A DNA stretch of 64,000 nucleotides from an uncultured Oscillospiraceae bacterium. Its GTDB lineage: Bacteria; Bacillota; Clostridia; Oscillospirales; Oscillospiraceae. The stretch is from positions 30,083 to 94,082 of the forward strand of contig CALWOP010000001.1 in assembly GCA_944383195.1 (NCBI GenBank), in the 5' to 3' direction. Shown here piece by piece: positions 6,304 to 38,650 of the stretch. Below the pieces are notes generated by a model. The model saw nothing but the letters and a program-made list of their open reading frames with translations. It had not been told where the DNA came from and ran no database searches. Numbering within the stretch: position 1 is the first letter of the stretch; each line of letters opens with the position of its first letter. Position numbers and translations under genes: made by a program.

Positions 6304-6317
6304 TTTGGGGAGTGTGT

Positions 6318-6938
6318 ATGAAAAATTATGAGGATTTGAACGGCCTGGAACTGGATACCATCCGGGAGATCGGCAGTATCGGGACAGGTAACGCGGCGAC
6401 CGCACTGTCCAGTATGCTGGGCTGTGAAGTACGAATTGAGATGCCTGAAGTGCGGATCATGGGCTACAATGAGGCCATTAACTGGATCGGCGGGCCCGAG
6501 ATTATTACGGCGGGCGTGCTGGTACATATGTCGGGCGAGTTGAACGGGATCATGCTTTCCGTGCAGCAGATGGAATTTGTCAATCTGGTGTTAGAGCGCA
6601 TGGTGGGCCATACCGTAGAGAACTATGAACAGCTCAATGATTTGGATCGTTCTGCTCTGGTTGAAGTGGGCAACATCATGATCTCCACCTTTATCAACGC
6701 CCTGTCCGGGCTGGCGGAGATTACCACTCGGCTTACTGTGCCGGCCTTTGCTGTGGATATGCAGGGAGCCATTTTGACCGTACCTATGGCCGAATTTGGC
6801 GGGCAGTCTGATTACATTATGACCATTGGAACGAACTTTATTTGCAATGGGAAAGCGGTGCCTTGCAGACTGCTGTTGTCTCCAGATATTCGCTCGTTGA
6901 ATTTCTTGCTGAAAAAGCTGGGGGTTTTGGATGGATGA
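6318..6938 (+). CDS. cheC: CheY-P phosphatase CheC
   Basis: CheC dephosphorylates CheY-P and binds CheD in Bacillus-type chemotaxis. The 206-residue protein shows two copies of the phosphatase helix: EIGSIGTGNAATALS near residue 15 and EVGNIMISTFINALS near residue 115, each with the conserved Glu and Asn. The ATG at 6318 follows a GGGG tract by seven bases; an in-frame GTG two codons earlier is less well placed. The 3' end overlaps cheD by eight bases, which fits the known CheC-CheD complex. Confidence 0.94.
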   Translation: MKNYEDLNGLELDTIREIGSIGTGNAATALSSMLGCEVRIEMPEVRIMGYNEAINWIGGPEIITAGVLVHMSGELNGIMLSVQQMEFVNLVLERMVGHTVENYEQLNDLDRSALVEVGNIMISTFINALSGLAEITTRLTVPAFAVDMQGAILTVPMAEFGGQSDYIMTIGTNFICNGKAVPCRLLLSPDIRSLNFLLKKLGVLDG

Positions 6939-7413
6939 TAAGCTGGTAGTTGGAATTGCGGACATGAAAATGGCCCGGCAAAATGGAATGCTGATTACCT
7001 ATGCCCTGGGGTCCTGCATTGGGATCTGCCTTTATGATCCGTTGATCCAGTTGGCGTCACTGGTGCATATCATGCTGCCACTGAATATGGAAACCGGGCG
7101 AAAGTCTCCGCTGAAATATGCGGATACAGGGATTTGTGAGACCTTGCGCCGTATGGAGCAGCAAGGAGCCGCCCGGAGCCGGATTGTAGCTAAAATTGCG
7201 GGCGGAGCCCGTATGTTTGAGACAGCCGGGGGCGGAAATCTGGGTAATATCGGCCAGCGCAATATTGAAAGCACCCATATGGTGTTAAAGCGGGAAGGAA
7301 TCCGCCTGCTGCGGGAAGATGTGGGAGGCACGGTTGCACGAACGCTTTTGTTCGATGCAAGCAGCGGCCAAGCGTGTGTACGCAGCTACGGAAAACCAGA
7401 ACTGATTTTTTAG
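6931..7413 (+). CDS. cheD: Chemoreceptor glutamine deamidase CheD
   Basis: CheD deamidates glutamines on methyl-accepting receptors and modulates CheC. The 160-residue protein has the catalytic Cys29 in ALGSCIG and His46 in LVHIMLP, followed by the GGARMF motif. Translation begins inside the end of cheC (eight-base overlap), suggesting coupling. Two probable substrates, the receptors at 39458 and 44061, are in the same window. cheV follows after 26 bases. Confidence 0.95.
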   Translation: MDDKLVVGIADMKMARQNGMLITYALGSCIGICLYDPLIQLASLVHIMLPLNMETGRKSPLKYADTGICETLRRMEQQGAARSRIVAKIAGGARMFETAGGGNLGNIGQRNIESTHMVLKREGIRLLREDVGGTVARTLLFDASSGQACVRSYGKPELIF

Positions 7414-7439
7414 AGATTATGGAGAAAGTGGGGAACGGC

Positions 7440-8378
7440 ATGGCAGAGGAAACAAAAAGCGGGATCTTGCTGGAAACAGGAACCAATGAGATTGAGATCA
7501 TGGAATTTACCATTGATGGAAACCTCTTTGGAATCAATGTGGCCAAGGTGCGTGAGATCATGATGTCCGCACCGGTAAAGCCAATGCCTCATACGCACCA
7601 GGCAGTGGAAGGGATTTTTAAGCCCAGAGATACTGTGATCACTGTGGTGGACCTGCCTAAGTATTTAAGCGGCAGGGAGCATGAGCATAAAGAAAAGGAT
7701 CTGTTCATTGTAACAAACTTTAACCAGATGCATGTGGCCTTCCGAGTGGACAGCGTGGTGGGAATCAGCCGTATCTCCTGGAAAGACATTCAAAAGCCCG
7801 ACAGCACCATTTCCGGCGGTGCGGACGGCGTGGCCACCGGCATTGCCCAATGCGGCGAAGATCTGGTGAATATCCTGGACTTTGAGCGGATCGTGGCGGA
7901 AATTGCGCCGGAAACCAGTATTCAGATCAGCGAAGTAGAGGCGCTGGGAGCCCGTGACCGTAACAGCAGTCCCATCTGGATCGCGGAGGACTCCATCCTG
8001 CTGACGCGGATGATCCGGGAGTCTCTGGAGCGGGCAGGCTATACCAACCTGCGCACCTTCCCCAATGGGGCGGAGCTTTGGGAGGCACTGGAGGAGTGTG
8101 TTCAAACTGGCCCTGTAGACGACCAGGTAGCACTGGTCATCACGGATTTGGAAATGCCTCAGATGGACGGACACCGCCTGACCAAGCTGATCAAAATGAG
8201 CCCGGAATTCAAGCATATCCCCGTGGTAATTTTCTCCTCCCTGATTACGGAAGAGATGCGGCGGAAAGGCCGGGAAGTGGGCGCGGATGAACAGCTGAGC
8301 AAGCCTGAAATTGGGCACCTGATTGGTATCCTGGATGAACTGCTGAAACGGGATCGCGGAAACGGGAAAGGAGAATAG
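7440..8378 (+). CDS. cheV: Chemotaxis coupling/response-regulator protein CheV
   Basis: CheV joins a CheW-like coupling domain (residues about 15-165) to a phosphoacceptor receiver domain (about 180-305), and serves as an adaptable link between receptors and CheA. The receiver shows the acidic pair in IAEDS, the phosphoacceptor in VITDLEMPQMDG, and a late Lys in LSKPE. The ATG at 7440 gives 312 residues and has GTGGGG seven bases upstream. Longer in-frame openings reach back into cheD but have no ribosome site. The EAL/HDOD-type gene follows after four bases. Confidence 0.94.
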   Translation: MAEETKSGILLETGTNEIEIMEFTIDGNLFGINVAKVREIMMSAPVKPMPHTHQAVEGIFKPRDTVITVVDLPKYLSGREHEHKEKDLFIVTNFNQMHVAFRVDSVVGISRISWKDIQKPDSTISGGADGVATGIAQCGEDLVNILDFERIVAEIAPETSIQISEVEALGARDRNSSPIWIAEDSILLTRMIRESLERAGYTNLRTFPNGAELWEALEECVQTGPVDDQVALVITDLEMPQMDGHRLTKLIKMSPEFKHIPVVIFSSLITEEMRRKGREVGADEQLSKPEIGHLIGILDELLKRDRGNGKGE

Positions 8379-8382
8379 TACA

Positions 8383-9672
8383 ATGAGCAGCAAATACATT
8401 GTACGTCAGCCCATCAAAGACCGGAACAACCGAATCGTGGGATATGAGATTCAGTACTATGGGGAGAACAGTGCCTTTGGTGGAGACGGGGAAGCGGCCA
8501 ATGACTTTGCCGCTGCGGACACCATTTACAATTTTCTGACCCTGAATACGGATAAGCTGCTGCGTGGTACGTTGAATTTTATGACGTTTACCACCACACT
8601 GCTGATGAAAAAAACCCCCCGTCTGTTTAACAAAGACGAGCTGGTCATTCAGATCGACGACAGTGTGATCATCCACCCGCTGGCTATGCACATCCTGCAG
8701 CAATATGCCAAGGAGGGGTACAAAATCGCCGTCAATGAATTCCAGTTTGCCCCCCGGTATCTGGCTATGCTGGACAGTATTGATTACATCAAGGTGAATT
8801 TCCAGACCATGCAGGAGCTTACGCTGAAAAATATCATTGAGATCGCCCACAGCATGAACAAGTCGTGCATTGCAGTGGGGATCGACACTGAGGAGCTGTA
8901 TCAGCGGGCTCAGAAGCTGGAAGTGGACGCCATGGAAGGGACTGTCGTGGCAGAGAAGATGGCGCAAAAGACCCACAACAGCGGATATATGCAGAGCAAC
9001 TTCTTCCGCTTGATGGTGGCGGTCATCAAGGATGAGCCGGATGTGGAGGAGATCGAGCGGATTATTTCTGTGGATGCAACCTTGACCTACGGCCTTCTGC
9101 GGATTGCCAATTCCCGCTATTTTTCCCTGCGCAGCAAGGTGACCAGTGTGCGGCAGGCTGTTATGACCATCGGCCTGAATGGGCTGAAGCAGTGGGTGTA
9201 CCTGCTGAGCGCCAGCAATGCGGAGAACCAGATGGATGAGGGCGCGGAAGAATTCCTGCGGTTGTCTCTGATGCGGGCACATTTCTGCGAGAGCTTGATG
9301 AATTACGCCAAAAATATGCCTGTCAGCAAGTCTGATGCTTACTTGATGGGTATGTTCTCCACACTGAACTATCTGATCGACGCTCCTATGGAGGAGATTT
9401 TGCAGCAAATCCCCATGTGCCAGGAAGTGAAAGATGCCCTGCTGCACCATAAGGGACGGTGTGGAATCCTCTATGACCTTGCCCTTTGCTATGAGCGGGC
9501 GGCCTGGGCCCAAATTGACCGGCTGGCTGGTGAACTGGGCATCCAGACCAATTTGTTGACCAGCCTATACTTCAGCTGCATGGAGGAAGTAAACCGGATC
9601 TGGGGAGAAATTTCCCAGGCCGAGGGAATTCAGCCTGAGCAGCTGAAAGAAGAGCAACCCGCGGCTGAATAA
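8383..9672 (+). CDS. EAL/HDOD domain signalling protein (YuxH type)
   Basis: A 429-residue two-domain protein. Residues 1 to about 195 resemble a degenerate EAL domain (opening SSKYIVRQPIKDRNNRIVGYE), but I do not see an intact catalytic EAL signature, so c-di-GMP hydrolysis is unlikely. Residues about 200-400 match an HDOD domain (NFFRLMVAVIKD, LLRIANSRYF, a run of amphipathic helices). Such proteins are thought to be signalling scaffolds. It is the last gene of the operon, four bases after cheV, and is followed by a strong terminator. Its exact role is unknown. Confidence 0.85.
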   Translation: MSSKYIVRQPIKDRNNRIVGYEIQYYGENSAFGGDGEAANDFAAADTIYNFLTLNTDKLLRGTLNFMTFTTTLLMKKTPRLFNKDELVIQIDDSVIIHPLAMHILQQYAKEGYKIAVNEFQFAPRYLAMLDSIDYIKVNFQTMQELTLKNIIEIAHSMNKSCIAVGIDTEELYQRAQKLEVDAMEGTVVAEKMAQKTHNSGYMQSNFFRLMVAVIKDEPDVEEIERIISVDATLTYGLLRIANSRYFSLRSKVTSVRQAVMTIGLNGLKQWVYLLSASNAENQMDEGAEEFLRLSLMRAHFCESLMNYAKNMPVSKSDAYLMGMFSTLNYLIDAPMEEILQQIPMCQEVKDALLHHKGRCGILYDLALCYERAAWAQIDRLAGELGIQTNLLTSLYFSCMEEVNRIWGEISQAEGIQPEQLKEEQPAAE

Positions 9673-27357: not shown

Positions 27358-28500
27358 CTATGGTTTGACAGCTACAATACGGATGACTGGAGGATCATCG
27401 TTTCCGTAGGGGGCAAATCCGGTTTGCTCCTTGGCGTACTCCACCCGGAATCCACAATGCTCAAACGCATGGACCAGTTCATCCCGGACAATAAAGCGGC
27501 GGTAATGGTTATCATAGAAAAAGGCATTGCGTTCAACTGCCTTTCCTTTTCCGTATAGAGGATCGTTGACGCTGCGAACCTCTACAAAGAATTTCCCGCC
27601 CGGTTTCAACGCCCGGAACATGGCCTGCAGCAGCATGGTCTCCTGCTTTTGATTGATGGCATGGATCGTAAAACGGCTGTAGGCGTAATCATAGCTGTCC
27701 GGTTTGTGGGCGTCGCTGGCAATAAAATCGCCGCACAGGAAGCGAGCATGATCCACCGAATTCTGGTTGAGCTGATCGATGGCGGCGCGGGACAAGTCAA
27801 TGGCCAGCACATCCAGACCTTGTCCGGCAAAAAACAGCGCGTCCCGTCCGTTTCCACAGCCCAGATCTACAAGAGTCTTCCCCGGCTCTACGAGGGTGGA
27901 GACATACTGAGCGAAAGGAGAGGGCTGGGTGGAGCAAATCTGATTGTGATAGTATTGATTCCAGTAGGCAGTATTGTCAATGGGGTTTTCCACAATGTTG
28001 GGATAGAACTTGCGCTCTACTTCTTCCACCAGTTCAAGAGGCGTGCGGTCGCCGTCATTTTGCAGGATCAAGTCGGGGGACTTGGGCTCGTCAAAGGGAA
28101 GATCCACACCCACCACATTGTGTCCCGCAGTGTACAGGCCCTTTTGATTGCGCTGGATGAGGGTCTCTTTTTTGACCCGGATATAGATTTCCTTGTAATT
28201 GGGAATGTGTTCCCGGTTCCAGCGGCGCACTGTGTCAAACATGGCGATGGAACAGCATATCACATCGATGCCCTGGTCGGAGAGCAGCTTACACACCCGA
28301 AAGATTCGTCCCGCCCAGCGCAGACGCTCCTCGTGCGTGTAGCCAACGTCCTCACCGAAGGCCAGACGGATCTCGTCCCCATCCAGATAGACCACATTGG
28401 GTTTGGTGGATTTCAGACGGCGGTAAAAGAGACCGCCCACAGTAGTCTTACCTGCGCCGGACAGTCCGGTGAAGAAATAGACAGTTCCTGGATTATCCAT
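27358..28500 (-). CDS. APS kinase-like / SAM-dependent methyltransferase fusion
   Basis: A 380-residue two-domain protein. Residues 1 to about 165 match adenylylsulfate kinase: P-loop GLSGAGKTT (13-21), LDGDEIR (39-45), VGYTHEERLR, and QKGLYTAG with the downstream GVDLPFDEP. This kinase makes PAPS from APS and ATP. Residues about 175-380 are a class I methyltransferase with VDLGCGNGRD (about 210-219) and AIDLS. It lies 13 bases after the sulfotransferase-like gene and 13 before the PHP gene. The methyl acceptor is unknown. An alternative is that the kinase domain acts on another nucleotide or sugar. Confidence 0.87.
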   Translation of the reverse strand: MDNPGTVYFFTGLSGAGKTTVGGLFYRRLKSTKPNVVYLDGDEIRLAFGEDVGYTHEERLRWAGRIFRVCKLLSDQGIDVICCSIAMFDTVRRWNREHIPNYKEIYIRVKKETLIQRNQKGLYTAGHNVVGVDLPFDEPKSPDLILQNDGDRTPLELVEEVERKFYPNIVENPIDNTAYWNQYYHNQICSTQPSPFAQYVSTLVEPGKTLVDLGCGNGRDALFFAGQGLDVLAIDLSRAAIDQLNQNSVDHARFLCGDFIASDAHKPDSYDYAYSRFTIHAINQKQETMLLQAMFRALKPGGKFFVEVRSVNDPLYGKGKAVERNAFFYDNHYRRFIVRDELVHAFEHCGFRVEYAKEQTGFAPYGNDDPPVIRIVAVKP

Positions 28501-30597: not shown

Positions 30598-31782
30598 TTA
30601 CTGCAGCAGCTGGAGCACGCCCTGAGGCACGGTGTTGGCCTGGGCCAGCATGGCCTGGGCGGACTGGATGAGGATGTTGTTCTTGGTGTAGGCCATCATC
30701 TCGTCGGCGATGTCGGTGTCGCGGATGGTGGACTCGGCGTCCTGGATGTTCTCCTGCATGACGCTCAGGTTGTTGATGGTGTGATCCAGACGGTTCTGGG
30801 TGGCGCCCAGGGTGCCGCGGACATCGGAGACATAGTTGATGGCGTTCTTAATGACATTGAGAGCATCGGCAGCCCCAGTCTGATTGGAGATGTCAATGTC
30901 ACCGATGCCGATGGCATCAGAGTCGGTATTCTTGACGGAGACGGCCAGCTGGTTGAAGCTGTCGCTGGTATCGCCGATCTGGAGGATCAGGCCGCCCACG
31001 CCCTCCTTGGCGGAGGTGGTGAATGTGCCCTTCAACTCTTCATTCGCTCCGGTATTGGCGGCGGTCAGAGTGATCTTGGTTCCAGAGGCAACCGCCGCGG
31101 TATACTGGCCGCCCACATCGCCGGAGAACTTATCGGCATTGATGGCAGCAGCCAGCTTAGTGGCAAAATCATCGGCGTCCATATTAGCGGTCACTTCCAC
31201 ATCGTAGGTCTTGCCGCCCAGGGAGACGCTCATCGTGCCTGTGCCGCTGACCTTGCTGCCCACGGCAAAGCCGGCCAGATCCAATTGGAATACCGCCTTG
31301 CCGTTAGCAGAACCAGCTGTCTTAAGCGTGATCTCGGTGCTGGTGGCATCGGTGTAGCCGGCCAGAGAGCCGTCCAGCAGCTTGATGCCGTTGAAGTTGG
31401 CGGAATCAGCGATGCGGTTGATCTCAGAGCGCAGCTGGTTGACTTCCTTCTGCAGCTGGGTACGGTCGGTGCCCTCATAGGTGCCGTTGGCGGACTGCTC
31501 AGCCAGGGAGTACATGCGGTTGAGCATGTCGTGGACCTCGGTCAGATCACCCTCAGCGGTCTGCACCAGGGAGATGCCGTCCTTGGCATTGTCCTGAGCC
31601 TTGTCCAGGCCGGTGATCTGGGCGCGCATCTTCTCGGAAATGGCCAGACCGGCGGCGTCGTCGCCGGCGCGGTTGATCTTGTAGCCGGAAGAGAGCTTCT
31701 CCAGGTTCTTGGACAGGGCGGAGGTGTTGTTGTTGTAGTTGCGGTAGGCATTCATAGCCATAATATTGTGCTGGATACGCAT
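30598..31782 (-). CDS. fliC: Flagellin, filament subunit
   Basis: The filament protein, 394 residues. The N-terminal D0/D1 part begins MRIQHNIMAMNAYRNYN and contains LSSGYKINRAGDDAAGLAI; the C-terminus has the matching helices and ends NTVPQGVLQLLQ. The middle (about residues 165-300) is variable and rich in Thr/Ser/Ala. Start at ATG 31782 with AAGGAGG eight bases upstream; longer in-frame openings run into the leader. A sigma-28-like promoter lies at 31930-31956, giving a leader of about 140 bases. FliS (36842) is its likely chaperone and FliD (34218) its cap. The following genes may modify it. Confidence 0.96.
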   Translation of the reverse strand: MRIQHNIMAMNAYRNYNNNTSALSKNLEKLSSGYKINRAGDDAAGLAISEKMRAQITGLDKAQDNAKDGISLVQTAEGDLTEVHDMLNRMYSLAEQSANGTYEGTDRTQLQKEVNQLRSEINRIADSANFNGIKLLDGSLAGYTDATSTEITLKTAGSANGKAVFQLDLAGFAVGSKVSGTGTMSVSLGGKTYDVEVTANMDADDFATKLAAAINADKFSGDVGGQYTAAVASGTKITLTAANTGANEELKGTFTTSAKEGVGGLILQIGDTSDSFNQLAVSVKNTDSDAIGIGDIDISNQTGAADALNVIKNAINYVSDVRGTLGATQNRLDHTINNLSVMQENIQDAESTIRDTDIADEMMAYTKNNILIQSAQAMLAQANTVPQGVLQLLQ

Positions 31783-31896
31783 AAGATTTTCCTCCTTGAA
31801 AATTTGGTCGAGGCAAGTTCCTTCTTGCCCGCCGGATTGGTGAGTCCGGACACGCCCGCAGGCCTTTACGGACGGAACCGGACACGGGATGGGGCA

Positions 31897-32028: not shown

Positions 32029-33183
32029 TCAAAGAAGGTGCCGGGGCGTTTCCATCACAGTCTTGCAGGCCTGGATGACCTGGGAGATGACCATGGATTC
32101 AAACTTGGCTCGGTAGAGGCTGACCATAGGCGTGGCGGCAGAGGCGGGCAGCACCACATATTTAGCAGGCAGCCGGGTGAGGGCCAGGGCCCTGGCATCG
32201 GCCAGGCACCGGGGGCAGCTGCACAGACCAAACATATGCACATACCGCTCCAGCCGCTCATCCACCAGGACCTCCATCACATTGATGCAGACTGACCCGT
32301 CCGGCAGGTGCGTCTCACGCGGGGCGAAGGGGACCTCTGGTTCTTCCTCCGGAGCGGGAGCCAGTTCAGGTTTGGGCTGTGGCTCGGGCTCCGGCTTGGA
32401 GGCGGGAGCGGCCATATCCCGGAGCATCCGCTCGATCTCCTCCTGGCTCATTTTTCCGCCGCTGGGAGCGGAAGCGGGAGCCGGTTCAGGTTCTGGCTGC
32501 GGCTCAGGTTCCGGCTTGGAAGCGGGAGCGGCCATGTCCCGGAGCATCTGCTCGATCTCCTCCTGGCTCATTTTCCCGCCGCTGGGTGCGGAAGCGGGAG
32601 CCGGTTCAGGTTCTGGCTGCGGTTCAGGCTCCGGCTTGGAAGCGGGAGCGGCCATGTTTTGGAGCATCCGCTCGATCTCCTCCTGGCTCATTTTTCCGTT
32701 GTTGGGTGCGGGGGCGGGAGCCGGCGTGGGTTGAGGTTCCAGCTCAGGCAGAGGCACCGAAACGGGCTCGGCCGGGGGCGGAGCCTGTTGGGCCAACTCT
32801 TCCTCCAGCGTTTGAGACAGGGCGTCGCGAATGGCCTCAGAGAGCGCGTCATTGTTGGTGCGGGCTACCTGCAAAATGGGGGCGGCCAACCGCTCCCCCT
32901 CCCGGTTGGCGGGGGGCGGAGCAATGTCGGCCTGCGCATGGGCCTGGTCGGCCTGATCAGAATGGGATTTTTTACGAGAACGGGCAGTGTGTTTGGATTT
33001 TTCCGGGGCCGGATGGGAGGCGGAAGAATCCGCTTCTTCTGGGGAAGGGGAGGGCTGGGCCGGTTCAGAGGAGACAGTCTGTTCCGGTTGGGCCGGAGAA
33101 ACCGATTCCTCCGGCGCACCGCCGGAAAGAAGGCTCAGCACGTGGTCCGTCTTGCTGGTGCGGGTGTTTCGTTTTCCTGCCAT
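32029..33183 (-). CDS. ComFB-domain protein with three FliM-like CheY-binding-type repeats
   Basis: A 384-residue protein, not recognised as a whole. Residues 1-160 are polar and Pro/Glu/Lys-rich. Residues 161-280 are three near-identical 40-residue repeats, each with GKMSQEEIERMLRDMA or a variant (motifs at 164-178, 204-218 and 244-258) followed by a Pro-Glu linker. The motif resembles the FliM/FliY N-terminal peptide (LSQxEIDALL) that binds CheY-P. Residues about 292-384 form a ComFB domain with the cysteine cluster LCSCPRC (321-326) and LPAKYVV. ComFB proteins are linked to competence, motility and cyclic-dinucleotide binding. ATG 33183 follows GGGAGG and shares one base with the ParA stop codon. 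Confidence 0.8.
   Translation of the reverse strand: MAGKRNTRTSKTDHVLSLLSGGAPEESVSPAQPEQTVSSEPAQPSPSPEEADSSASHPAPEKSKHTARSRKKSHSDQADQAHAQADIAPPPANREGERLAAPILQVARTNNDALSEAIRDALSQTLEEELAQQAPPPAEPVSVPLPELEPQPTPAPAPAPNNGKMSQEEIERMLQNMAAPASKPEPEPQPEPEPAPASAPSGGKMSQEEIEQMLRDMAAPASKPEPEPQPEPEPAPASAPSGGKMSQEEIERMLRDMAAPASKPEPEPQPKPELAPAPEEEPEVPFAPRETHLPDGSVCINVMEVLVDERLERYVHMFGLCSCPRCLADARALALTRLPAKYVVLPASAATPMVSLYRAKFESMVISQVIQACKTVMETPRHLL
32344..32703 (-). repeat. Three tandem 120-bp in-gene repeats
   Basis: Three direct repeats with an exact 120-base period encode the 40-residue units of the ComFB-domain protein. Units differ by a few substitutions only, so they arose recently or are being homogenised; copy number could vary between strains. 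Confidence 0.93.
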
Positions 33184-33974
33184 CAGATCTGCCTCCCATC
33201 GTTGCTGCGGGGAAATTGAGCGCCTGCCACCAGATCGCACAGATGCTCAAAATCCTGCGCGGGTTTGGAGGCGGGGGCGTAGTCGATCACGCTCATGCTG
33301 TGGGCAGGGGCCTCAGCCACCGCCACGCTGGTGCGGATTTTGCTTTCAAACACCACTGTGTCCAGCTGCTTGGCGATTTGATCGGCAAGCTCCAGTACCT
33401 CCCGGTTGAGGTTGAACCGGGCGTTAAAGCGGTTGAGCAGGATGCCAAGAACCTCCAGACGGGAGTTGTAATATTCCCGCACGCTCTCAATGGTTTCCTT
33501 GATTTGGGACACACCAAGGAGGCTGAGCACTTCGGGAGCCATGGGGATGATCAGCTTGTCCACTGCCACATAGGCATTGACGGTGAGCAGATTCAGTGCA
33601 GGCGGCGTGTCCACGATGATATAGTCGTAGTTTTCCTCCACCTTGGACAGGGCGGTTTTGAGCATATATTCCCGGCCGGGCCGGTTAAACTCCAGTTCCG
33701 CTCCCGCAAGAAGGATGTTGGAGGGCAGCAAATCGCAGGTCTGGGTATGGGAAATGGCCTGCTGGGGCTCCAGCTCTCCACGGAATACGTCGTGAATGGT
33801 CGCACAGCGCTCAATGTTCAGCCCCATGCTGAAACCCAGGCTGCCCTGAGGGTCTAAATCCACCCCCAACACCCGGGCGCCCCGGTTGTGCAGACTGGCC
33901 AGCAGGGCGGCCGCCGTAGTGGTTTTCCCAACGCCACCTTTCTGGTTGGTAATTGCGATCATCAAAGCTGGCAT
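33183..33974 (-). CDS. ParA/Soj-family partition-type ATPase
   Basis: A 263-residue deviant-Walker ATPase. The A motif KGGVGKT is at residues 12-18, the A' motif is VDLDPQGS and the switch II-like motif is IVDTPPAL. No ParB gene or parS-like site is near, which argues against chromosome segregation. ATG 33974 has AAAGGAGG eight bases upstream. The stop codon overlaps the ATG of the ComFB-domain gene (TGATG), so the two are translationally coupled. Orphan ParA proteins position chemotaxis arrays (ParC, PpfA) or flagella; such a role is inferred from the place between flagellin and fliD. Confidence 0.9.
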   Translation of the reverse strand: MPALMIAITNQKGGVGKTTTAAALLASLHNRGARVLGVDLDPQGSLGFSMGLNIERCATIHDVFRGELEPQQAISHTQTCDLLPSNILLAGAELEFNRPGREYMLKTALSKVEENYDYIIVDTPPALNLLTVNAYVAVDKLIIPMAPEVLSLLGVSQIKETIESVREYYNSRLEVLGILLNRFNARFNLNREVLELADQIAKQLDTVVFESKIRTSVAVAEAPAHSMSVIDYAPASKPAQDFEHLCDLVAGAQFPRSNDGRQI

Positions 33975-34217: not shown

Positions 34218-36812
34218 ATGGCATCCGTAAATAGTTTATCCAGCGCAAGCTCCTCGTCCAGTATTTATGGCAATCGTACCTATAATATTATTTCCGGACT
34301 GGCCAGCGGTCTGGATACCGAAGAACTGATCTCCGGCGTTGTCCAGAGCTATCAGCAGAAGATCCAGAGCCTCCAGAGTAAAAACACCAAGCTCCAGTGG
34401 CAGCAGGAGGCCTACCAGAGCATCTCCGACAAGTTGGTGGAGTTTTACCGCAATTACGCTACTTTTGCGTATTCCAACAACAACCTGGCCAGCTCCAGCT
34501 TTTTCAACAACGCGGTGATCACCTCGACAAACGGCAAGTATGCCAACCTGGTCACCGCTACCGGAAAGACCAGCAGCGACGTTATGCTCAACGCCGTCAA
34601 GCAGCTGGCCTCGGCCGCCAGGTATACCCATGATGCATCCAACCTGACCGATAACATCACAGTGGATGATAGTGGCAAGAAGATTACCGGCGACTCCATG
34701 GAGATCAATTCGGATAACACGGTGGATGTGAGCAAGCTGGCCGGTTCCCTCACCATAACCTACGGTAACCAGGAGGTCACGCTGGATTTTGGTGAGCGGG
34801 AATTTTTTGAAAAAGACGGTCAATTTGACGTTCAGACATTCCAGAATGCAATTAATCAAAAGCTCAAAGAGCAAAAGATCTCAACCAACAACGGTTCCGG
34901 TTCGGCGGACGAGTATATCAGTGTAAAAGTCCGGGATGACGGCTCCGGACATATTTCTCTTACAGTCGACGACCTGAAAAACAGCGGCAATACCTTTAAG
35001 ATCAGCGAGGCCACCGGCAGCCTGGGCGATTTGATTGGTAAGCAGCTGGGCGACGATACCAAGACGGTCAACCTGGGAATCCCTGATAACTTTACAGACA
35101 AGAAAGCCCTGTCTGAGTTCATTGACGGGGAGAGCATTACCGTTACTTTGGACGGCAAGAAAAAGACCATCAGCCTGGACGGGCTGAAAGACGTGAAAGA
35201 CCTCGGGGAATTTGAGAAAGCGCTCAACGAAGAGCTGAGAAATGCCTTTGGAACCGAAAAAGTGACCAATTCGGATGGTTCGTCCAGTGTGGTCAATAAG
35301 ATCAGCGCCACTCTGGACCCCAAAGATGGCATCTCCTTTACTATGGCACCCTCCATTAAAAATTCCACCATGTCTGTCACCGCCTCCAACAGAGATGTGG
35401 GCGATATTTTGGGCATCGGCTCTGGCCTGACCAGCTATCTGGACACCACCAAGACCCTGGGAGATCTGGGAGGACTGAGCCTGGAAGGTCTGACGGCCGC
35501 CGAAGCGGTGGGCGATATCACGGAGAAAAAGGCGGAAGACGGCAGCACCTACCGTGTGGATTCGGAAGGTTACCGGGTCAATGATGACAATAAGCGGATT
35601 GACGAAGACGGCAACCTGATGTATGATTTAGAGATCAATGGTGTGAAAATTGGAAGCTACAGCAAGAATACCGAGCTGAACACCGTTATCAACGATATCA
35701 ACGCCAATACGGAAGCCGGCGTTAACATCAGCTACTCCAAGACCACCGGCCAGTTTGTATTCACCGCGAAGGACACTGGCTCCAGCGGCCGTGTGGAGAT
35801 CGAAGCCGGCGGATTGGGCGAGAGACTGTTTGGCAAAGTTACACGCAACCAAGACACTGGAGAGTTGGAATCTGACACTGGCACCTACGAGTCGGGCCGG
35901 GATGCTCAGATCATCGCCACCATCAACGGCCAGACCATGGAGCTGACCCGTTCCTCCAACAGCTTTGATCTGGACGGCATGAATATTACCGTTAACGGTA
36001 CGTTCAATCCGGAGACTACTGTGGACGAGGTGGAAGCGGCCATCAAAGATGGTAAGCTGGACACGGACAGCCAGATCACCTTCACCAGCAAGACAGACGC
36101 GGACACGATTGTGGACGCGGTAAAGAAGATGGTGGAGGACCTGAACACCCTTATCAAGGAGGTCAAGAGCGCTTATTCCGATATGCCTCTTCAGAAGAAC
36201 GACGGCTCTTCCTATGAGCCGCTGTCTGACGAAGCCATGGAAGGAATGAGCGAGTCGGCCATCGAAAACTACGAGAAGAAGGCAAAAACTGGCATCCTGT
36301 TTATGGACAACGACCTGTCCTCGTTGTACAATGATCTGCGTAATGCCATTACCTCCAGCGGAGCGGACGGCGCAACGCTGCGGTCCATCGGAATTGAAAC
36401 CTCTTACTCGGATGGGCTGACCACCCTCACCTTTAATGAGGAAAAGTTCCGGGCGGCTCTGGAGAGCGATCCGGACAAGGTGCAGGAGGCGTTTACCAAG
36501 TCCAAGGAGAACGGCGCCGCCACCGACGGTCTTATGACGAGACTGACTGGGATTACCGACAAATACGCTGCTACAACCGGCGACGTAAAGGGTATCCTGA
36601 TCGAGAAGGCCGGCTCCAAATACTCCCCCAGCGCCGCATTGGATAATACACTTCTGGATCAGATGAAAGATGTGGAGGAAGAGATTTCCAAGTGGCAGGA
36701 TAAAATGTCCAATAAGGTGGACTACTACACCAACAAGTTCACCCAGCTGGAACTTCTGATCAACCAGATGAACTCCCAGAGCTCGGCTCTGGCCGGCTTG
36801 ATGGGAGGTTAA
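34218..36812 (+). CDS. fliD: Flagellar filament cap protein FliD, enlarged
   Basis: FliD caps the growing filament and folds arriving flagellin. The N-terminal domain (residues about 22-120; ISGLASGLDTEELISGVV and the coiled QQKIQSLQSKNTKLQWQQEAY) and the C-terminal domain (about 590-864, ending in coiled QLELLINQMNSQSSALAGLMGG) are conserved. At 864 residues it is far longer than common FliD proteins of about 450-700; the extra length lies in the middle, outward-facing region and looks beta-rich with repeated Gly/Thr/Asp strands. fliS follows after 29 bases. Confidence 0.94.
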   Translation: MASVNSLSSASSSSSIYGNRTYNIISGLASGLDTEELISGVVQSYQQKIQSLQSKNTKLQWQQEAYQSISDKLVEFYRNYATFAYSNNNLASSSFFNNAVITSTNGKYANLVTATGKTSSDVMLNAVKQLASAARYTHDASNLTDNITVDDSGKKITGDSMEINSDNTVDVSKLAGSLTITYGNQEVTLDFGEREFFEKDGQFDVQTFQNAINQKLKEQKISTNNGSGSADEYISVKVRDDGSGHISLTVDDLKNSGNTFKISEATGSLGDLIGKQLGDDTKTVNLGIPDNFTDKKALSEFIDGESITVTLDGKKKTISLDGLKDVKDLGEFEKALNEELRNAFGTEKVTNSDGSSSVVNKISATLDPKDGISFTMAPSIKNSTMSVTASNRDVGDILGIGSGLTSYLDTTKTLGDLGGLSLEGLTAAEAVGDITEKKAEDGSTYRVDSEGYRVNDDNKRIDEDGNLMYDLEINGVKIGSYSKNTELNTVINDINANTEAGVNISYSKTTGQFVFTAKDTGSSGRVEIEAGGLGERLFGKVTRNQDTGELESDTGTYESGRDAQIIATINGQTMELTRSSNSFDLDGMNITVNGTFNPETTVDEVEAAIKDGKLDTDSQITFTSKTDADTIVDAVKKMVEDLNTLIKEVKSAYSDMPLQKNDGSSYEPLSDEAMEGMSESAIENYEKKAKTGILFMDNDLSSLYNDLRNAITSSGADGATLRSIGIETSYSDGLTTLTFNEEKFRAALESDPDKVQEAFTKSKENGAATDGLMTRLTGITDKYAATTGDVKGILIEKAGSKYSPSAALDNTLLDQMKDVEEEISKWQDKMSNKVDYYTNKFTQLELLINQMNSQSSALAGLMGG

Positions 36813-36841
36813 CGATCTCCAAAGGAAAGGAACGCACCTTT

Positions 36842-37216
36842 ATGGATATGCGAGGTTACCAGCATTATCGGGAGCAGTCCCTGAATACTATGACCCCCGG
36901 TGAGCTGCTGCTGTTGGTTTATGACGAACTGATCAAGCGGCTGACACAGGCAGAGTTGGCCCTTTCCCAAGAGGACTACCAGACCTTTGAGGCGGCTGTG
37001 GATCATTCCGTCCGTATTGTCCATTATTTGGATGATACATTGGATCGGCAGTATGAGATCAGCAGTCAGCTGACCCGGTTGTATGAATACTTCTGCTATG
37101 AACTCAGCCGGGTAAAGAGCGGCCGCAATAAAACCGAGTTGGAGCGGGTAAAGCGTATGGCTGCTGAACTGCGGGAAAGCTTCCGTACTGCGGACAAAAA
37201 CACCTCCAGCCGATAG
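36842..37216 (+). CDS. fliS: Flagellin export chaperone FliS
   Basis: FliS binds the flagellin C-terminus and keeps it export-ready. The 124-residue helical protein shows the family start (GYQHYREQSLNTMTPGELLLLVYDELIKRL). AAAGGAAAGGAA precedes the ATG; the Met two codons later is an alternative start. It is in the usual fliD-fliS order, with a small chaperone-like gene nine bases downstream. Confidence 0.95.
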   Translation: MDMRGYQHYREQSLNTMTPGELLLLVYDELIKRLTQAELALSQEDYQTFEAAVDHSVRIVHYLDDTLDRQYEISSQLTRLYEYFCYELSRVKSGRNKTELERVKRMAAELRESFRTADKNTSSR

Positions 37217-37225
37217 GAGCTCACC

Positions 37226-37636
37226 ATGTTACATGATCAGCAATTAGATGAAGCTAACGCTATCCAGCGCAAGATGTATACCTCCCTGGCAGAAGTGGCA
37301 GAGCTGACAAGTGAGCTGTCCGAGGCGGTGAACCGCCAGGACCAGGTGTCAGTTCGGATGTTTCTGTCCATGCGGCAGGAGGAGATTGGACGGCTGAATG
37401 ATTATCAAGCCATGCTGAACCGGCAGTGTAAGCAGCTGCCGGCGGAGGATGGCGCGTTACTCAGCCAGTATATTTCAGGCCGGTTTTCGGGGAAGCTCCC
37501 TACGGCCAGCGGAGAGGCGCTGCTGCGCCAGGTGGAAAAAAACTACGCTCTGTTGGAGCGGGTCCGCCAGGCGGATCGGGCAGTGAGCAGCCGTTTGGGT
37601 GGGGCTAATTCCTTTTACATGAAACAAGGAAAATAG
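37226..37636 (+). CDS. FlgN/FliT-like flagellar chaperone
   Basis: A 136-residue, mostly helical and charged protein with a central ELTSELSEAVNRQDQ and MRQEEIGRLNDYQAML. Composition and length fit FlgN/FliT-type export chaperones, and the position after fliS is that of fliT in many firmicutes. No single decisive motif, so FliT or FlgN cannot be distinguished. TAGGAGCTCACC precedes the ATG. A convergent terminator follows. Confidence 0.65.
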   Translation: MLHDQQLDEANAIQRKMYTSLAEVAELTSELSEAVNRQDQVSVRMFLSMRQEEIGRLNDYQAMLNRQCKQLPAEDGALLSQYISGRFSGKLPTASGEALLRQVEKNYALLERVRQADRAVSSRLGGANSFYMKQGK

Positions 37637-37698: not shown

Positions 37699-38571
37699 TT
37701 AACTTCCTAAAGAGGGGAAATACCACAGTGGGGCACCGCTGGACCGACTGGAGGAGAGCTCATCTAAAATAAGCTGTGGGTCCCAAAGAGCCAGGCTCCG
37801 CTCCCGGCTATTAGGGTCTGCGACCAGTATTTGCCCCGTCAAGGTGGCGCCCCGGAGGACAATGAAGTGTCCTCCGCTGGTAAAATGCCCAGGCCCCATG
37901 AGGGCGATGAGCAGCTGGCCGGTGGCCAGCCGTTGATATAGATCGTCCGCGGAGAGCTCTCCGCAGGAGTGCGCTTCCAGGCCAAAGTGCTGGGCCAATC
38001 CTTCCACAATGGACAGGTAAGACCCGCTGCCTGGGGCACAGTACCCCAGTTCATAGGCCGTCTGAGCCATTTGAGCAGGGTCTACCAATTCCGGCCCCAG
38101 CGTGGAGACTACCATGGACATTGCGGTGGGGCCGCAGCCAAAGCCTTTGACTGAGTCCGGCCCAAAGCTGGCTTCGGCCCAAGGGGATTCCCCCTGATTG
38201 AAGTAAATAAGCTCGACCACCCCGCCGGTCAGTACCTCCTGATCCTGGTGTGAGCGAAACTGTGTGATGGTCGGGTCTTGCGTAGCGGGAGGGGAAGCAG
38301 TTTCCGGTTCCTGAATTTCCTGGCTGACCGGAGCGGCTTCTTCTTGCTGTGTTTGAGGCGGCTGTGCAGGGGGGCGGATCTGACTCAACAGATTCTTGCC
38401 CTGATCCTGGAGCGATTGTTTCAATCGGGCCGCCGGCTGCATGATTTCCTGAAAAAGATCCGGGTCCATGATTCGGCATACCGCTAACTCAGTGCCCCCG
38501 ATACAGAGTAAGGCGAGCAAAATGAGCCCCGGGATGCGAAGATAATGTTTTTGTTTCTTTTTATCACTCAT
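37699..38571 (-). CDS. Membrane-anchored C39-like cysteine peptidase homologue
   Basis: A 290-residue protein with a short basic tail, one membrane segment (about 11-32), a Pro/Gln/Glu-rich spacer (about 65-100) and a papain-like C39 domain. The catalytic Cys146 in GFGCGPTAM, His235 in GGHFIVL and Asp252 in VADPNS are all present. It probably acts outside the membrane; the substrate is unknown. Start at ATG 38571 after GGGAGACTGCA; the longer opening extends through the divergent promoter region. It is divergent from the FtsE-like gene. Confidence 0.82.
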   Translation of the reverse strand: MSDKKKQKHYLRIPGLILLALLCIGGTELAVCRIMDPDLFQEIMQPAARLKQSLQDQGKNLLSQIRPPAQPPQTQQEEAAPVSQEIQEPETASPPATQDPTITQFRSHQDQEVLTGGVVELIYFNQGESPWAEASFGPDSVKGFGCGPTAMSMVVSTLGPELVDPAQMAQTAYELGYCAPGSGSYLSIVEGLAQHFGLEAHSCGELSADDLYQRLATGQLLIALMGPGHFTSGGHFIVLRGATLTGQILVADPNSRERSLALWDPQLILDELSSSRSSGAPLWYFPSLGS

Positions 38572-38650
38572 TGCAGTCTCCCGCCTCACTTCATCGTGTG
38601 ACACATTATAACAAAAATTTTTCTCATTGTATATAAGGAGGGATAGATCT

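Follow-up and report, generated by a model that had tools for sequence, protein, structure and literature searches.

Organization of the ParA-ComFB locus

The window (the whole stretch of 64,000 nucleotides that was analysed) carries the gene of a ParA-family ATPase followed by that of a ComFB-domain protein (Table 1). Both genes lie where the first-pass annotation had placed them, between flagellin and fliD, and the translational coupling it described was found as a TGATG junction, in which the ATG of the ComFB gene shares one base with the ParA stop codon. Since this ATG, at 33183, is the likely start, the ComFB protein is 384 residues long. The identical 1-base overlap was present in 11 of the 67 measured loci (from the best 80 of 109 named loci). 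For two sigma-28-like promoter patterns the search gave one match each, at chance level and distant from the pair. Among the further genes of the window, one encoding an unassigned 136-aa protein after fliS (37226-37636, plus strand) and one for a C39-like peptidase (37699-38574, minus strand) are neighbours of the pair in many relatives. Two genes from a flagellin gene, an adenylylsulphate kinase domain is fused to a SAM-dependent methyltransferase (27358-28500, minus strand), and an EAL plus HDOD protein (8383-9672, plus strand) is encoded directly after cheC-cheD-cheV.

Table 1. Positions of the pair, of the segments of the ComFB partner and of the motility genes in the window.
Feature	Position	Strand	Basis or remark
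ParA, 263 aa	33183..33974	-	Pfam AAA_31 (ParA), E 4.7e-50
ComFB-domain partner, 384 aa	32029..33183	-	Pfam ComFB, E 2.3e-15
Basic N-terminus, residues 1-20, predicted to activate the ParA ATPase	33124..33183	-	conserved K, net charge
Conserved central helix, residues 101-132	32788..32883	-	conservation, AlphaFold (pLDDT about 85, residues 111-130)
120-bp tandem array, peptides and Pro/Glu/Ala-rich linkers	32353..32724	-	tandem repeat detection
Switch-type peptide copy 1, GKMSQEEIERMLQNM	32653..32697	-	array, motif search; helix 167-177 predicted
Switch-type peptide copy 2, GKMSQEEIEQMLRDM	32533..32577	-	array, motif search; helix 207-217 predicted
Switch-type peptide copy 3, GKMSQEEIERMLRDM	32413..32457	-	array, motif search; helix 247-257 predicted
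ComFB domain, CxCxxC and later C conserved	32032..32316	-	Pfam, alignment, AlphaFold fold
Flagellin, neighbour	30598..31785	-	Pfam
fliD and fliS, divergent neighbours	34218..37216	+	Pfam; retained next to the pair in most named loci
cheC-cheD-cheV, elsewhere in the window	6312..8378	+	near the pair in many relatives

The profile match and the KGGVGKT signature assign the ATPase to the ParA superfamily, Soj type, its Walker A motif being the deviant KGGVGKTT. Its closest solved chains by sequence are 4pfs, 8ray and 1wcv, deposited in the PDB as cobyrinic acid a,c-diamide synthase, ParA family protein and segregation protein, respectively. When the protein was read against the FlhG that adjoins flhF in relatives, neither a DQAxxLR extension nor an FlhG-like C-terminal membrane-targeting helix could be seen in it and flhF does not adjoin it, so that it does not belong to FlhG. 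It had been called an orphan ParA; this had to be given up, as related genomes have a ComFB partner of like build next to it.

The partner consists of a basic N-terminus, a central helix, a Pro/Glu/Ala-rich stretch with the repeats and a ComFB domain, in this order. Near its start a K precedes T[ADSE][HR] in all 62 intact non-redundant partners, and the net charge of the N-terminus is +2 to +6 in the 59 partners counted; a gene that adjoins parA and encodes such a positively charged N-terminal segment has the mark of a ParA activator (AAP). In the AlphaFold prediction from 12 sequences the ComFB domain reached pLDDT values of 86-96 (residues 291-380, in blocks of ten). Besides the central helix, a short N-terminal helix (11-19) and isolated 11-residue helices at the three repeats (pLDDT about 65-74) were predicted, while the remainder stayed mostly below 50. 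The single-sequence run, with a mean pLDDT of 54, likewise predicted an isolated helix at repeat copy 1. The assignment to ComFB rests on the Pfam match over the cut-off and on the predicted fold, which matches both B. subtilis ComFB (4wai, E 1.5e-4) and c-di-GMP-bound CdgR (8hja, E 2.6e-3); the sequence match to 8hja is weak (E 0.037). The tandem array has a period of 120 bp, 3.1 copies, 90% matches and a score of 604. The three 40-residue units had been described as exact repeats; three units there are, near-identical rather than exact, with ERMLQNM, EQMLRDM and ERMLRDM as the differing parts.

Conservation and distribution of the pair

As a module, the ParA-ComFB pair is conserved next to fliD-fliS, frequently with cheC-cheD-cheV nearby. 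From the scan with the ComFB alignment the best 80 of 109 named loci were taken, nine of which were dropped from the synteny counts because of cut ComFB ORFs. In the 71 intact loci a ParA was always listed, in 68 of them not more than 200 bp from ComFB, with FliD nearby in 67 and FliS in 66, and in 50, 46 and 45 of them, respectively, cheV, cheD and cheC were no more than about 6 kb away from the pair. The named loci belong to Lawsonibacter, Flavonifractor, Pseudoflavonifractor, Oscillibacter, Neglectibacter, [Clostridium] viride and others, and also to Muricomes intestini and Clostridium sp. C105KSO13, which we take to be Lachnospiraceae. Within the window's genus (64 genomes), any ComFB was present in 35, the same 35 that gave a FliM match (that of G049 being below the cut-off), and the pair could be read in 33; G014 and G060, for which the search gave just a small ComFB and whose FliY shows no motif either, were not counted as pair genomes.

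The strict repeat motif was detected in 10 of the 80 loci taken. CheY capture, which the first-pass annotation had proposed, cannot be the core function of the pair, because the pair occurs mostly without repeats. The peptides are a lineage-specific graft and, for the same reason, accessory to the pair.

The repeat peptide and its counterpart in FliY

A DNA pattern of the motif was run over the whole draft genome of the window's organism (2.36 Mb, 87% complete). It gave four matches, three in the ComFB gene and one in the FliY linker, and none with the reversed control pattern, thus the motif is not a product of chance. FliY, a CheC-FliN switch protein encoded after FliM, lies outside the window (L102:8907-10259). 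The repeat fits the organism's own FliY peptide, SQEEIE[KR]ML, better than FliM SQSQIDALL. In nearly all genomes of the genus that were read, FliM has the usual N-terminal SQSQIDALLN, and the FliY of the group starts with the CheC domain; it has no switch peptide at the N-terminus, and 0-4 copies of the peptide lie in the linker that joins its CheC domain to FliN. At least one copy was found in the FliY of 73 of the 83 tabulated relatives; three of the other ten FliY are cut short, and in five of the seven genomes with an uncut, motif-free FliY the motif is present in ComFB.

Among 66 ComFB copies of the peptide neither the Q nor the I nor the last L varies, and the S position holds S in 63 copies and N in the other 3; among 119 FliY copies the Q is constant, with S or T, I or V and L or M at the other three positions, the search pattern having allowed only some of these letters. 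The residue after I, which the pattern left free, is E in every one of the 66 ComFB and 119 FliY copies and D in FliM. In all 27 genomes with both peptides (some of them near-duplicates) the ComFB peptide scored nearer to that of FliY than to the FliM 10-mer, which rules out FliM as the model. Hence the FliM/FliY pattern recognised in the first-pass annotation stands insofar as the same peptide occurs in the organism's own FliY, and falls with respect to FliM. The repeat follows the LSQxEIDxLL type with E for D; the repeats are internal in the ComFB protein and not at the N-terminus of a C-ring protein. Recent copying from FliY to ComFB within a genome was not supported, the mean similarity being 35.9 within and 36.0 between genomes.

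Divergence of the repeat at the S-Q-E-I-L positions had been named as a refuting outcome. Judged by this, many homologues lack the repeat, and the ComFB peptides of G102 have diverged to MSDDAIAALF. G193 and G196 possess the pair and have no such peptide in either ComFB or FliY. The copies, 0-6 in the ComFB of relatives, are near-identical within a genome. The draft contigs of L043, L047, L049, L053, L054 and L055 break off within the ComFB repeat array or at its edge, as do those of L058, L060, L062, L063 and L067, therefore the copy numbers there are lower bounds.

A compensation between the copy numbers of the two proteins was considered as well. With 6 of the 83 genomes left out for a FliY that could not be parsed, 10 as duplicates and 3 because a trait was undetermined, the raw counts gave 30 genomes with none in ComFB and at least two in FliY and 25 with some in ComFB and 0-1 in FliY (Fisher p 8e-10), the other two cells holding 8 (none, 0-1) and 1 (some, at least two). 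Compensation was not supported after tree correction: on a quick FliY tree, in which 25 of 64 inner branches had less than 80% support and the repeat trait requires at least 6 changes, independent pairs were never in the same direction, but with p values of 0.25-1. That the copies in FliY and ComFB always sum to at least two is wrong, the sum being 1 in G149, G153, G154 and others and 0 in G193 and G196.

FlhF and FlhG in genomes with the pair

FlhF was not found in any pair genome of three overlapping sets (0/36, 0/50 and 0/4), the 6 best candidates having been scored per genome for the 391 Clostridia, 15 for the relatives and up to 38 for the named loci. FlhF over the cut-off occurred in 7 of 149 relatives, none with the pair. 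The 53 relatives with a FliM match comprise 36 with the pair only, 7 with FlhF only, 10 with neither and 0 with both (Fisher p 1.3e-4, phylogeny ignored), the second-kind pairs of G066, G087, G095 and G136, without FlhF over the cut-off, being left out of the 36; FlhF is thus at 0/36 against 7/17 in the other FliM-positive relatives. The set of 50 consists of genomes of named pair loci, drawn from the best 80 of 109 with 30 of the 80 left out. Of 391 Clostridia, 128 gave FlhF and 144 FliM, and FlhF was found in 124 of these 144. The genomes with a long ParA-linked ComFB (G000, G102, G355 and G436) accounted for 0/4, compared with 124/140 of the other FliM-positive Clostridia (p 2.8e-4, phylogeny ignored). 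In family f52 FlhF is present in 12 of 13 FliM-positive genomes, and the exception, G436, has the pair.

Conversely, in 14 FlhF-positive genomes, which include all 4 ComFB-bearing genomes among the 7 FlhF-positive relatives, no ParA was found beside ComFB, each ComFB standing alone. The pair was not found in 16 other FliM-positive, FlhF-less Clostridia; the loss of FlhF therefore does not require it, and the pair is not the sole way of doing without FlhF. In the window flhA is directly followed by a sigma factor gene, and the 2.36 Mb draft genome gave no FlhF over the cut-off. By sequence reading, its five AAA_31 matches are this ParA, a Soj, a MinD-like, a Mrp-like and one weak match, none of which reads as FlhG.

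Comparison with known systems

The components are known and their combination appears new. As in FlhF-FlhG, an ATPase of the ParA/MinD family is tied to flagella, and PMC12327844 and PMC12826062 report contact of FlhG with a FliY/FliM-type peptide, in Geobacillus with the first 36 residues of FliY (PMC12327844). Unlike there, the ParA is of the Soj type with neither DQAxxLR nor membrane helix seen, FlhF was not found, and a separate ComFB adaptor bears the peptides. With PpfA-TlpT, ParC-ParP, McdA-McdB and PomZ-PomX the pair shares a ParA and a partner with a basic N-terminus on a cargo-specific body, but here this body is a ComFB protein with, in some lineages, an array of FliY-type peptides. 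ParA activators of unrelated build have in common a cargo body preceded by a basic stretch at the N-terminus (PMC7993993, PMC10241942).

The repeat resembles the N-terminal CheY-P peptide of FliY/FliM, LSQXEIDALL, in its SQ-x-E/D-I-x-x-M/L-L form, of a type found in the FliY of the same genome; it differs in being internal, repeated, placed on a protein that is not a known switch component and in having E for D after I. With the ComFB/CdgR receptors the partner shares the ComFB fold and the CxCxxC cluster, while here ComFB stands behind a long disordered region and is coupled to a ParA. At the dimer interface of B. subtilis ComFB, as given in PMC4381287, N, D and Y are kept here and the equivalents of E7 and N40 are changed. 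Among the open-licence PubMed Central papers listed for ComFB with ParA or with cyclic dinucleotides, no title or abstract start described a ParA-ComFB pair; there, no paper combined ComFB with flagella and CheY, and none FlhG with EIDALL.

Proposed role of the pair

The explanation that best accommodates the architecture, the identity of the motif with that of FliY, the conservation, the synteny and the failure to find FlhF in pair genomes is a ParA/activator positioning module in the stead of FlhF-FlhG, whose adaptor in some lineages bears FliY-type peptides, likely as a dock for CheY-P. We would give this reading a probability of about 45%. The ParA would be a Soj-type ATPase of the motility machinery, probably nucleoid-binding, and the ComFB protein its dedicated partner, presumably both activator and cargo adaptor, because activators share the basic N-terminus and every intact partner has the lysine. 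The lysine-rich N-terminal segment may stimulate the ATPase, and the long disordered region would lead to a terminal, probably dimeric ComFB domain. In flagellated Clostridia with the pair, the module would replace FlhF-FlhG in the control of placement and number. In the lineage of the window and in some others, the disordered region would have acquired the docking peptide of the FliY linker in 1-6 copies, each predicted to form a short helix.

To our knowledge, the ligands of the FliY-type peptide are CheY-P and FlhG. CheY-P appears the most likely one, because it is the known ligand of the FliY/FliM peptide, and with no FlhG seen in the genome it is left as ligand, unless ParA has taken the position of FlhG. 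The latter is less likely, since such a peptide is missing from both proteins in two pair genomes. Interaction of CheY-P with LSQXEIDALL of B. subtilis FliY and FliM is stated in PMC7595845, and similarly in PMC9126983. The adaptor would then present several weak CheY-P sites wherever ParA places it. Control of the module by cyclic dinucleotides may be possible on account of the ComFB fold and the Synechocystis ComFB work cited below. The E where FliM has D, the divergence in G102 and the changes at the E7 and N40 positions of the B. subtilis dimer count against this explanation, as do the many pairs without repeats, the peptide-free G193 and G196 and the 16 FlhF-less Clostridia in which no pair was found.

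That the pair positions chemoreceptor arrays or CheC/CheD/CheV instead of flagella, similarly to PpfA-TlpT and ParC-ParP, with the peptides bringing CheY there, is in our view unlikely. The frequent cheV, cheD and cheC near the pair would agree with it, and ParA-family ATPases for chemotaxis clusters are known (PMC10241942); however, fliD and fliS are the more constant neighbours, the exclusivity concerns FlhF and thereby the flagellar system, and no array-binding domain is among the Pfam matches of the partner. The peptides might also bind ParA itself, in which case FliY and ComFB would compete for it. The binding of the 36 N-terminal FliY residues by FlhG, itself a ParA/MinD-family ATPase (PMC12327844), the failure to find FlhF in pair genomes and the lack of an FlhG among the AAA_31 matches of the window's genome are in line with such competition, which nevertheless seems improbable, as peptide-free pairs exist (G193, G196), ParA is Soj-like, and the conservation shared by all partners beyond ComFB lies in the basic N-terminus and in parts of the central helix.

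It is equally hard to regard the protein, in essence as the first-pass annotation did, as a CheY-P sink or FliM competitor under second-messenger control, with ParA serving polar placement only: the peptides are absent from most homologous pairs, and FliY usually has 1-4 copies, so that a sink need not sit in ComFB. For this role would speak the multivalent FliY-type peptides, the fold shared with a c-di-GMP receptor, three GGDEF matches of the genome, on two contigs, and the binding of c-di-AMP and c-di-GMP by Synechocystis ComFB reported in PMC12313861. Finally, the near-identity of the copies within a genome and their number of 0-6 would suit a neutral, slippage-prone Pro/Ala/Glu repeat, its motif kept merely by recent duplication. 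This is very improbable, since the linkers vary between genomes while Q, I, E and L are fixed in 66/66 copies (the fixity of Q, I and L, not that of E, being partly favoured by the search pattern) and the genome-wide motif matches fall only in FliY and the ComFB gene.

The positioning module in the stead of FlhF-FlhG can be stated more broadly, as a separate flagellar/chemotaxis placement system replacing FlhF-FlhG in many flagellated Oscillospiraceae and some more distant Clostridia (36/53 FliM-positive relatives), with an adaptor that some lineages have made into a multivalent CheY-P dock by grafting FliY-type peptides. In this breadth it is rather doubtful. If true, a single protein would link organelle placement, a chemotactic signal and a possible cyclic-dinucleotide sensor. 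Placement and count of flagella without FlhF-FlhG are little known, a question asked for enteric bacteria in PMC12826062; if the pair does this, many Clostridia use a ParA-activator system with a re-equippable adaptor for it. In the grafted peptides one would see how a positioning protein can come to carry a docking motif of the flagellar switch, and since their copy number differs between relatives, its effect is testable.

Other ComFB genes in related genomes

The pair does not extend to small standalone ComFB genes. Beside these, several of whose loci are cut by contig ends, no ParA was found in 20 loci of 12 FlhF-less and 7 FlhF-positive genomes or in 9 more loci of 7 FlhF-positive and 2 FlhF-less genomes. 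Small ComFB proteins are common in Clostridia, and in G017 the gene of one stands directly after the long ComFB gene (L028:547-1749). A second, divergent ParA-ComFB pair without repeats is present at L033, L039, L068 and L069, in genomes without FlhF over the cut-off.
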